Source: Vulcanimicrobiota bacterium (GTDB lineage: Bacteria > Vulcanimicrobiota > Vulcanimicrobiia > Vulcanimicrobiales > Vulcanimicrobiaceae). From it: a stretch of DNA of 60,339 bases. A program made the translations under genes and the position numbers. The stretch spans positions 1 to 60,339 of the forward strand of contig DAHUZB010000002.1 in the NCBI GenBank assembly GCA_027306785.1, read 5' to 3'. The notes beneath the pieces were generated by a model. That model was not told the origin of the DNA, searched no databases, and saw only the letters and a list, made by a program, of their open reading frames with translations. This document shows, in pieces, positions 10,591-56,403 of the stretch (its first letter is position 1; every line of letters begins with the position of its first letter).

Positions 10591-10657
10591 GTGTCACCCT
10601 GAGCCTGTCGAAGGGCCGCGGTTGATGTGTGCGCTTCGACAAACTCAGGGTGACACG
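10591..10657. repeat. Inverted pair of the dispersed GTGTCACCCTGAG..GTCGAAGGG repeat
   Basis: One arm, GTGTCACCCTGAG-CC-TGTCGAAGGG at 10591-10615, faces a reverse-complement arm at 10634-10656. The arms differ by only two bases, so the RNA would fold into a long hairpin with an 18-base loop. It fills most of the dnaN-recF gap. Copies of the same unit occur near lpxB, recQ and recR and inside dnaX. Confidence 0.9.
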
Positions 10658-27861: not shown

Positions 27862-27863
27862 TG

Positions 27864-27886
27864 CTTCGACAAGCTCAGCATGACAC
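27864..27886 (-). repeat. Dispersed repeat copy, reverse orientation, after lpxA
   Basis: CTTCGACAAGCTCAG-CA-TGACAC is the reverse complement of the GTGTCACCCTGAGCTTGTCGAAG unit with two substitutions (CA for GG). It starts two bases after the lpxA stop and faces the forward copy at 28053-28077, enclosing the tandem array. Confidence 0.85.
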
Positions 27887-27907
27887 AGCGAGGTCCGCAT
27901 GACACGC

Positions 27908-28051
27908 CCTGTCGGCACGGCACGATGTGTCGGCACGGCACGGTGTGTCGGCACGGCACGAAGTGTCGGCGTGGGACGCCGTGTCGGCACGGCACGATGT
28001 GTCGGCACGGCACGGTGTGTCGGCACGGCACGATGTGTCGGCACGGCACGA
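27908..28051. repeat. 18-bp tandem array, eight units, lpxA-lpxB gap
   Basis: Eight 18-bp units of TGTCGGCACGGCACGATG type in direct tandem, without spacers. Variation is mostly in the last bases (GATG, GGTG, GAAG), and the fourth unit is divergent (GGCGTGGGACGC). The dispersed-repeat copies flank it as an inverted pair. One frame would give Cys-Arg-His-Gly-Thr repeats, but nothing supports translation. It is a minisatellite, not a CRISPR array. Confidence 0.9.
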
Positions 28052-28052
28052 A

Positions 28053-28077
28053 GTGTCACCCTGAGCTTGTCGAAGGG
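28053..28077 (+). repeat. Dispersed repeat copy just before lpxB
   Basis: A consensus copy, GTGTCACCCTGAGC followed by TTGTCGAAGGG, ends 8 bases before the lpxB ATG and runs straight into the GAGGAG ribosome-binding site. It could therefore affect lpxB translation. Confidence 0.9.
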
Positions 28078-45010: not shown

Positions 45011-45035
45011 GTGTCACCCCGAGCGTGTCGAAGGG
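45011..45035 (+). repeat. Dispersed repeat copy at the recQ stop
   Basis: GTGTCACCCCGAGCG followed by TGTCGAAGGG, two changes from consensus, ends exactly at the base before the recQ stop codon (45036-45038). Confidence 0.85.
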
Positions 45036-54270: not shown

Positions 54271-56061
54271 GTGTCCCTCTATCGTACCTGGCGCCCGAAG
54301 TCGTTTGCGGACCTCGTCGGGCAGGATGCCGTCGTCCGCACGCTCACCCACGCGATCGAGAGCGGCAAGCTCGCGCACGCCTACATGTTCTCGGGCCCGC
54401 GCGGTTCGGGCAAGACGTCGGCCGCGAAGATTTTGGCGCGCTGCATCAATTGCGCGGCGGGCCCTACGGCGCATCCCGACAACACGTGCGAAAATTGCGC
54501 GGCGATGCTGGCGGGCACGGCGCTCGACGTGCTGGAGATCGACGCCGCGAGCAACCGCGGCATCGACGAGATCCGCGCGCTGCGCGACGCGGTGAAGTTC
54601 GCGCCGTCGACGATGCGCAAAAAAGTCTACATCATCGACGAAGCGCACATGCTCACCAAAGAGGGCGCTAACGCCTTTTTGAAAACGCTCGAAGAGCCGC
54701 CCGATCACGCCGTATTCATTCTCGCGACCACCGAGCCGGAAAAGCTGCCGGTCACGATTCTTTCGCGCTGCCAGCGCTACGCGTTTCGCCGCATCTCGAT
54801 TCCGGTGATGATCGAGCGCATGCGCGAGATCGCGCGTTACGAAGGCATCGCGATCGACGACGACGCGCTCGCCGCGATCGCCTATCGCGCCGACGGCGGT
54901 CTGCGCGACGCGCTCACGATGCTCGAACAAGCCGCCGCCTTCGCCGACGGCGCGATCACCACGGCCACGATCGACCTCGCCTTCGGCGCCACCGGCCGCA
55001 ACTTCGCGGGCACGCTGATCGACGCGGTGATCGCGCGCGACGCCGCGCAGATGATGCGCACGATCGAAGAGGCGAGCGACGCCGGCACCGACATGCAGGT
55101 GCTGATCCGCGCCCTGATCGCCCACTTCCGCAACCTGCTCGTAGCCCGCATCGACCCCGCGCTGCTCGCCCGCGACCTGGCCCCCGAAGACGCCGCCCGC
55201 GCCACCGAACGCGCGCAAGGCATGCAGCAAGCCTCGGTCGTGCGCGCGCTACGCATCCTCTCCGACGCCGCAAGCCTGGCCCGCACCGGCGGCAACCCAA
55301 GGCTGGAGCTCGAGACCGCGCTCCTGCGCTTCGTGCTGGAGGACGACAGTGTCACCCTGAGCTCGTCGAAGGGCGCTCCCCAAAGTGTCACCCTGAGCGC
55401 GCCGCAGGCGCAGTCGAAGGGCGAGCTCGGTAGTGGTGCTCCCGCTGGTCGCCCCACCCCAGTTGAAAAGGCGCCTGCGGCCCCCAGTGTCGCACCGAGC
55501 TCCCCCAGTGTCACCCTGAGCTCCCCCAGTGTCACCCTGAGCTCGTCGAAGGGCCCATCGCAGGCCCCGCCGCCCTCCCCGGAACCGACCGCAGAGCTCC
55601 CACCCGAACCAGCGCCGCCCACCGCAGAACCAGCGCCGCCCGAGTCCCCCAGTGTCGCGCCCAGCGCCCCCAGTGTCACCCCGAGCTCGTCGAAGGGCGG
55701 CCCCCCGGGCCCCATCTCGGTGCAAAAGGTCCGCGCCGCCTGGACCAACATCCGCGGCAAGGTGGAGGCGGAGCGCCCGCCCCTGCGCGCCCCGCTCTCG
55801 GGCGCGATGGTCGACGCGATCGACGGCAACGCCGTGGTGCTCAAACTCCGCAGCAAATTCGACACCGACATCCTGAAGGATCACCTGAAGCTGCTCGAGC
55901 GGGCGATTCACGATATTCTCGGCGCCGAACTCAAAGTGCGCCTCGAAACCGGCGCCGCGGCAGCATCGCAAGCTGCGCTCGACGAACCCATGCCGCAATT
56001 CGAAGAGCCCGACGAAGACCCCGACGCGCTCTTCAACTACGCCAACGAACGGATCAAATAG
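54271..56061 (+). CDS. dnaX: DNA polymerase III subunit gamma/tau
   Basis: 596 residues from GTG 54271, starting at the family SLYRTWRPKSFADLVGQDAV. An upstream frame to 54088 lies inside the previous gene and is rejected. Walker A FSGPRGSGKTSAAKI is near residue 41, followed by zinc site CINC..CENC, IDAASNRGIDEIRAL, and Walker B VYIIDEAHMLTK. This is the clamp-loader ATPase. After domain III comes a Pro/Ser/Ala linker of about 120 residues. It carries five or more in-frame copies of the dispersed repeat, read as SVTLSSSKG or variants. A tau-like C-terminal domain (VRAAWTNIRGKVEAERPPLR) ends it. Confidence 0.94.
   Translation: MSLYRTWRPKSFADLVGQDAVVRTLTHAIESGKLAHAYMFSGPRGSGKTSAAKILARCINCAAGPTAHPDNTCENCAAMLAGTALDVLEIDAASNRGIDEIRALRDAVKFAPSTMRKKVYIIDEAHMLTKEGANAFLKTLEEPPDHAVFILATTEPEKLPVTILSRCQRYAFRRISIPVMIERMREIARYEGIAIDDDALAAIAYRADGGLRDALTMLEQAAAFADGAITTATIDLAFGATGRNFAGTLIDAVIARDAAQMMRTIEEASDAGTDMQVLIRALIAHFRNLLVARIDPALLARDLAPEDAARATERAQGMQQASVVRALRILSDAASLARTGGNPRLELETALLRFVLEDDSVTLSSSKGAPQSVTLSAPQAQSKGELGSGAPAGRPTPVEKAPAAPSVAPSSPSVTLSSPSVTLSSSKGPSQAPPPSPEPTAELPPEPAPPTAEPAPPESPSVAPSAPSVTPSSSKGGPPGPISVQKVRAAWTNIRGKVEAERPPLRAPLSGAMVDAIDGNAVVLKLRSKFDTDILKDHLKLLERAIHDILGAELKVRLETGAAAASQAALDEPMPQFEEPDEDPDALFNYANERIK
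55349..55697 (+). repeat. Cluster of dispersed repeats inside dnaX
   Basis: Near-consensus units lie at 55349-55373, 55529-55553 and 55673-55697. A longer variant at 55385-55421 has CGCCGCAGGCGCA inserted, and a truncated copy lies at 55508-55523. Degenerate GTGTCGC fragments occur at about 55488 and 55652. All are in one reading frame that avoids the TGA of CCCTGA, giving Ser-Val-Thr-Leu-Ser-Ser-Ser-Lys-Gly peptides in the linker. Confidence 0.92.
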
Positions 56062-56378: not shown

Positions 56379-56403
56379 GTGTCACCCTGAGCTTGTCGAA
56401 GGG
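56379..56403 (+). repeat. Dispersed repeat copy between ybaB and recR
   Basis: A consensus unit, GTGTCACCCTGAGC with TTGTCGAAGGG, lies 6 bases after the ybaB stop and ends 12 bases before the recR ATG. Confidence 0.9.

Follow-up and report, generated by a model that had tools for sequence, protein, structure and literature searches.

A TGTC-tagged, REP-like hairpin repeat between genes and in frame inside dnaX and other genes of an uncultured Candidatus Eremiobacterota bacterium

REP sequences tagged with CGTC or TGTC have no dedicated transposase and occur within genes for replication and repair (Di Nocera et al. 2013, PMC3733652). They are defined by a stem of 8-9 bp that opens with complementary A-T pairs and by a loop of 4-5 nt, and the Rickettsia palindromic elements RPE-4 and RPE-6 have been equated with them (PMC3733652). 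RPEs are about 105-150 bp long and Rickettsia-specific (reviewed in PMC2229807 and PMC10969869). The repeat unit reported here, GTGTCAYCCTGAGCNNGTCGAAGGR, had no description that we found in the literature, and the RepRanger survey does not name its phylum.

The unit was analysed in a window of 60,339 nucleotides (the whole stretch of DNA under study) from the genome of an uncultured soil bacterium of Candidatus Eremiobacterota (3.14 Mb, 96% complete; placed by its nearest named dnaX relatives), in which about 150 copies were present outside dnaX, with none in sequence-reversed controls. The original prediction had placed a repeat at 10591, 28053, 45011 and 56379 and in dnaX. This repeat was real; the window held eight matches with ≤3 mismatches, compared with none in 100 shuffles. 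The genome-wide count that had been proposed gave 152 copies with ≤3 mismatches, and the reversed pattern used as a control gave none. In a census of 722 kb retrieved around the copies, full units numbered 159, half units 42 and long units 2 (the half-unit counts cover these stretches only); the reversed control of the same census yielded a single half unit and no full or long one. Outside dnaX, the window contained the following.

10591..10615, + strand: intergenic unit that forms an inverted pair with the next one, as its left arm
10632..10656, - strand: intergenic unit that forms the right arm of this pair
27862..27885, - strand: variant TGTCATGCTGAGCTTGTCGAAGCA with a compensated stem, on the left side of an 18-nt tandem array
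27893..28057, no strand (.): 18-nt tandem array (GTCGGCACGGCACGATGT type) flanked by two inverted units
28053..28077, + strand: intergenic unit on the right side of this array
45011..45035, + strand: intergenic unit
56379..56403, + strand: intergenic unit in the ybaB-recR spacer

The 18-nt array between inverted units at 27862-28077 resembled the 18/21-nt arrays found beside units inside genes.

The consensus across the 152 units (from the stretches around copies) was GTGTCAYCCTGAGCNNGTCGAAGGRCG, and unit size ranged from 24 to 39 nt. TGTC occupied positions 1-4 and was preceded by G in 97%. The minimal 24-nt unit consisted of a 4-bp Watson-Crick stem followed by a near-invariant tandem G.A/A.G mismatch, and A5 stood opposite C in 104 of 151 units. 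Stem pair 6-24 was C-G in 92 units, T-A in 45 and G-C in 2, with a T-G wobble in 11 and a mismatched C-A in 2, and pair 7-23 was swapped in the rare compensated variant TGTCATGCTGAGCTTGTCGAAGCA. Stem cells were paired in 96.7% of cases over 24 distinct sequences, a value that none of 500 shuffles matched on pairing or covariation. In relatives, the long form carried an inner hairpin whose stem cells were 99% paired (18 distinct 39-mers from genomes G026 and G063). Double changes numbered 36 across the full structure, and the dialects of this long variant differed among genomes. Although the predicted folding energy of the short 24-mer was no better than that of shuffles, the compensatory and paired changes in the stem show that the structure is conserved, and the unit is therefore a REP-like hairpin.

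Like CGTC-tagged REPs (PMC3733652), the unit is a short hairpin with a CGTC/TGTC tag, frequently forms inverted dimers, lies in frame within genes, many of them replication and repair genes (uvrA, dnaE), forms ORF ends and has no dedicated transposase detected, here by a Y1_Tnp search of the copy-rich genomes. However, its stem lacks the two initial complementary A-T pairs and its loop is not 4-5 nt; instead it has a 4-bp stem with tandem G.A mismatches, an optional and freely covarying inner hairpin and tandem half-units of 18/21 nt, and it belongs to another phylum. Since the tag, the intragenic habit and the lack of a detectable transposase match but the stem and loop fall outside the definition, the family is a new variant that works like CGTC/TGTC-tagged REPs and not a proven member of them. 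As with the Rickettsia elements, a palindrome is found in frame in many unrelated conserved protein genes and also in spacers; unlike those elements of about 105-150 bp, the units here measure 24-39 nt, use two dominant frames and grow by tandem duplication of half-units. The unit thereby adds an uncultured phylum of moderate genome size to Rickettsia and the few Proteobacteria that have protein-coding palindromes.

Inside dnaX, the following copies were present.

54271..56061, + strand: dnaX (DNA polymerase III gamma/tau), host gene, 596 aa (NCBIfam PRK05563/TIGR02397)
55349..55373, + strand: full unit, peptide SVTLSSSKG
55385..55421, + strand: long variant with inner GCGCC/GGCGC hairpin, coding for the peptide SVTLSAPQAQSKG
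55487..55500, + strand: degenerate 5'-half unit (SVAPS)
55508..55521, + strand: 5'-half unit (SVTLS), 21 nt ahead of the next unit
55529..55553, + strand: full unit, SVTLSSSKG
55652..55665, + strand: degenerate 5'-half unit (SVAPS)
55673..55697, + strand: full unit, SVTPSSSKG

The gene matched TIGR02397 with E=5e-124 and stood in the order dnaX-ybaB-recR; 60 relatives were found. Where the original prediction had counted at least five copies, the repetition was upheld and the exact tally became four full units (three short and one long) and three 5'-half units, the halves lying on a 21-nt step. Every copy was coding in the (S)VTLS..SKG frame. The linker that holds the units is predicted to be disordered; residues 363-408 and 410-478, within which nearly all units fell, had pLDDT<50, and the core domains were well predicted. 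All three short full units had the rare TC centre, the left flank CCCCAGTG was common to five of the seven copies and a 71-nt block was duplicated, which together argue that one or two arrivals were multiplied locally. The dnaX copies are thus mostly local duplications and not independent arrivals.

dnaX had been singled out, but the protein genes that carried the unit in frame numbered at least 22. By our own gene calls, based on codon usage, 62 of the 203 full, half or long units lay within genes. NCBIfam confirmed DnaX, TrmFO, GpmI, IleRS, UvrA, Mfd, ArgG, glycine C-acetyltransferase and PrfC as hosts; MutS2, DnaE, a FadB-like protein, GcvPB, an E2 acyltransferase, Dxr, FabD and others were named from sequence recognition only. 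Judged by these assignments, the host genes encode conserved enzymes. Where a predicted protein contains a peptide such as LRQAQGDT or VTLSLSKG, that peptide is repeat-derived.

Four of the six unit frames were open, CHPELVEG among them. The coding copies had been said to keep to the frame that avoids the TGA of the unit; they do lie in a TGA-free frame, but two frames on that strand avoid it, CHPELVEG being the other open one. Counted per host gene, frame use was 18 for LRQAQGD, 9 for VTLSLSK, 2 for PFDKLRVT and 0 for CHPELVEG (chi-square p=5e-6 vs equal use), and internal copies used almost only LRQAQGDT and VTLSLSKG. Coding copies were therefore biased in phase. A fifth, antisense frame (PSTGSG*) terminated several genes within the unit, for example on contigs C30 and C9 of the source genome (G000). 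The step between units or half-units was divisible by 3 in 17 of 20 genic cases compared with 16 of 68 intergenic ones (p=1e-6), showing that the step is free between genes and frame-filtered inside them, in agreement with the coding constraint that had been expected.

If the coding copies had arisen by drift or tandem slippage in low-complexity linkers, their likeness to the intergenic unit would be due to chance or codon bias. The P/A/S-rich dnaX linker, whose length varies among relatives, and the evident slippage in 18- and 21-nt steps suit such an origin. However, genic and intergenic units were identical, as had been proposed, which contradicts it; exact 24-nt matches to the intergenic unit occurred in both orientations, in several frames and in many unrelated folded enzymes, the reversed control had 0 full units and the stem covaried. 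We consider drift or slippage hardly credible.

No Y1 transposase (PF01797, Y1_Tnp) was detected in the copy-rich genomes G000, G001, G007, G026, G027 and G036, and the same search was positive elsewhere; with 0 matches in these genomes, this enzyme was dropped as the mover. The repeat resembles the REPIN/RAYT system (PMC3116915, PMC8049555) in its within-genome hairpin population, inverted dimers and large variation between relatives, but differs from it in having no GTAG tag and no RAYT found in copy-rich genomes. Inverted pairs, together with the long form of G007, which occurs as inverted dimers of mostly ~190 bp with a partly conserved core and recalls a MITE or REPIN, would fit RAYT-type REPINs moved by a Y1 transposase; yet with no PF01797 hit in any of the six genomes and a TGTC instead of a GTAG tag, that origin is very unlikely. 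No clear target-site duplication was seen in the G007 dimers or at empty sites. Two 1.2-kb unit-flanked segments of G007 were inspected as candidate autonomous elements and had no transposase-like ORF; they carried unrelated genes, one serpin-like and the other of no assigned identity.

We consider it likely, with good confidence, that the units are a population of TGTC-tagged REP-like hairpins that spreads without a RAYT, whose genic copies are filtered by frame and tolerance and whose half-units duplicate locally. We infer the mobility of the unit solely from its distribution. In the proposed course of events, the hairpin would form a within-genome population in Ca. Eremiobacterota and would reach new sites by a route without a RAYT, presumably one based on single-stranded DNA or on the hairpin itself. 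Selection would let a genic copy survive only if it preserved the frame and sat in a linker or loop where the protein could accommodate a hydrophilic insert. The 5' half could then be duplicated locally in 18- or 21-nt steps to give a longer insert.

All genomes compared were of species rank, and G001 and G002 belong to the same genus as the source genome. Among the dnaX linkers that were readable, intact units were found only in the source genome and in G032, which had two copies of the dialect GTCACCCCGAGCGTAGCGGCGAAGCCGCGTAGTCGAGGGG. In G001, with 240 genomic copies, dnaX retained only a right-half relic (CCGCAGGCGCAGTCGAAAGGC), and in G002, with three intact genomic copies, it held a decayed long variant (SVAPSATEPQPKG). 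In the comparison of linkers that had been suggested, related dnaX genes did not share the copies, in line with the prediction; the pattern of the same copies at the same sites in all related dnaX genes with no intergenic counterparts was absent. The dnaX linker probably had a unit in the ancestor of the genus, which would have decayed in G001 and G002 and multiplied locally in the source genome. The ybaB-recR spacer contained one unit in the source genome vs four in G001. G032 apparently has dnaX twice, on contigs C9 and C2, at 83% and 85% identity to the source gene, possibly as paralogues or because of mixed strains.

Twelve further host genes were compared with their orthologues in G001 and G002. 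Sites in trmFO, mutS2, dnaE, gpmI, uvrA, mfd and argG were common with G001, with differing tandem numbers, and G001 also had a site in ileS (at a contig edge) and in a shortened fadB; no intact unit was found in its gcvPB, prfC or kbl. In the units common with G001, about 48 of 50 third positions were identical (~96%, a small hand count), compared with 0.69 in the flanks (p=2e-6; range 0.65-0.78, and 0.58 at the contig-edge ileS). In G002, relics were recognisable at trmFO, dnaE, gpmI and ileS, with p<0.05 for each and a combined p=1.5e-4 over 12 sites; at its other compared sites no unit could be clearly made out. With relics or empty sites where its congeners are intact, the population in G002 has therefore decayed or was never refilled. 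In kbl, the source genome and G032, which is of another genus, had a unit in the same loop region that G001 and G002 lacked, reflecting either a repeated insertion site or loss; insertions at common sites could likewise be partly independent events at the same tolerated loops.

Intact orthologous units may be kept by intragenomic gene conversion or by re-insertion from an active population and otherwise decay, as in G002. The third-position identity, the few intact copies and the relics of G002 and the differing long-variant dialects speak for conversion or re-insertion. However, the count was small and made by hand, and the same picture would result if a DNA or RNA hairpin were under purifying selection or if units had recently inserted into these loops independently; we regard conversion or re-insertion as a serious possibility but lean slightly against it. 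The original prediction of an element or gene conversion still active went further than the data, which reach turnover at genus level and intact orthologous units at ~30% synonymous divergence. Some active upkeep of intact copies is nevertheless what we infer. More speculatively, and with considerable doubt, a RAYT-independent and possibly replication-strand-polarised repeat might be kept perfect by copy-correction in some Eremiobacterota and lost in sisters; while active, it would rewrite peptides in essential enzymes through frame-filtered, minisatellite-like growth of half-units. At the same gene sites, two congeners have large intact populations and a third has nearly none. This natural experiment makes it possible to test by what route REPs without a transposase spread, what keeps them intact and what proteins will accept.

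On contig C30 of the source genome, every one of the 43 C-type units and half-units within 129 kb was on the + strand, and 27 of 28 units on contig C8 of G027 lay on one strand. This polarity hints at a coupling to replication. Units also tended toward the C-rich strand. These strand patterns would suit a polar motif that serves the host in replication or in organising the nucleoid, the intragenic copies being its by-products. Such a function is decidedly unlikely; the rank correlations reached only p=0.05-0.07, the skew association outside C30 was not significant (p=0.47), congener G002 manages with three copies and many family members have none.

The family pattern was found in 26 of 60 sampled members of the phylum, nearly all in the window's own family, in which many other members had no copies. 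It was present in each of the seven tested genomes of named Eremiobacterota or close relatives, but in only 3 of 43 more distant ones. Copy number was high in G000, G001, G007 and G036 and low in G002, G008 and G013. Exact units also occurred in IMG/VR contigs, many of low GC, and viral contigs may carry the unit from one phylum to another. Six exact GC-rich units were present on one viral contig of 40 kb and ~36% GC (IMGVR_UViG_3300035388_000083), and one or two on each of several other low-GC viral contigs.
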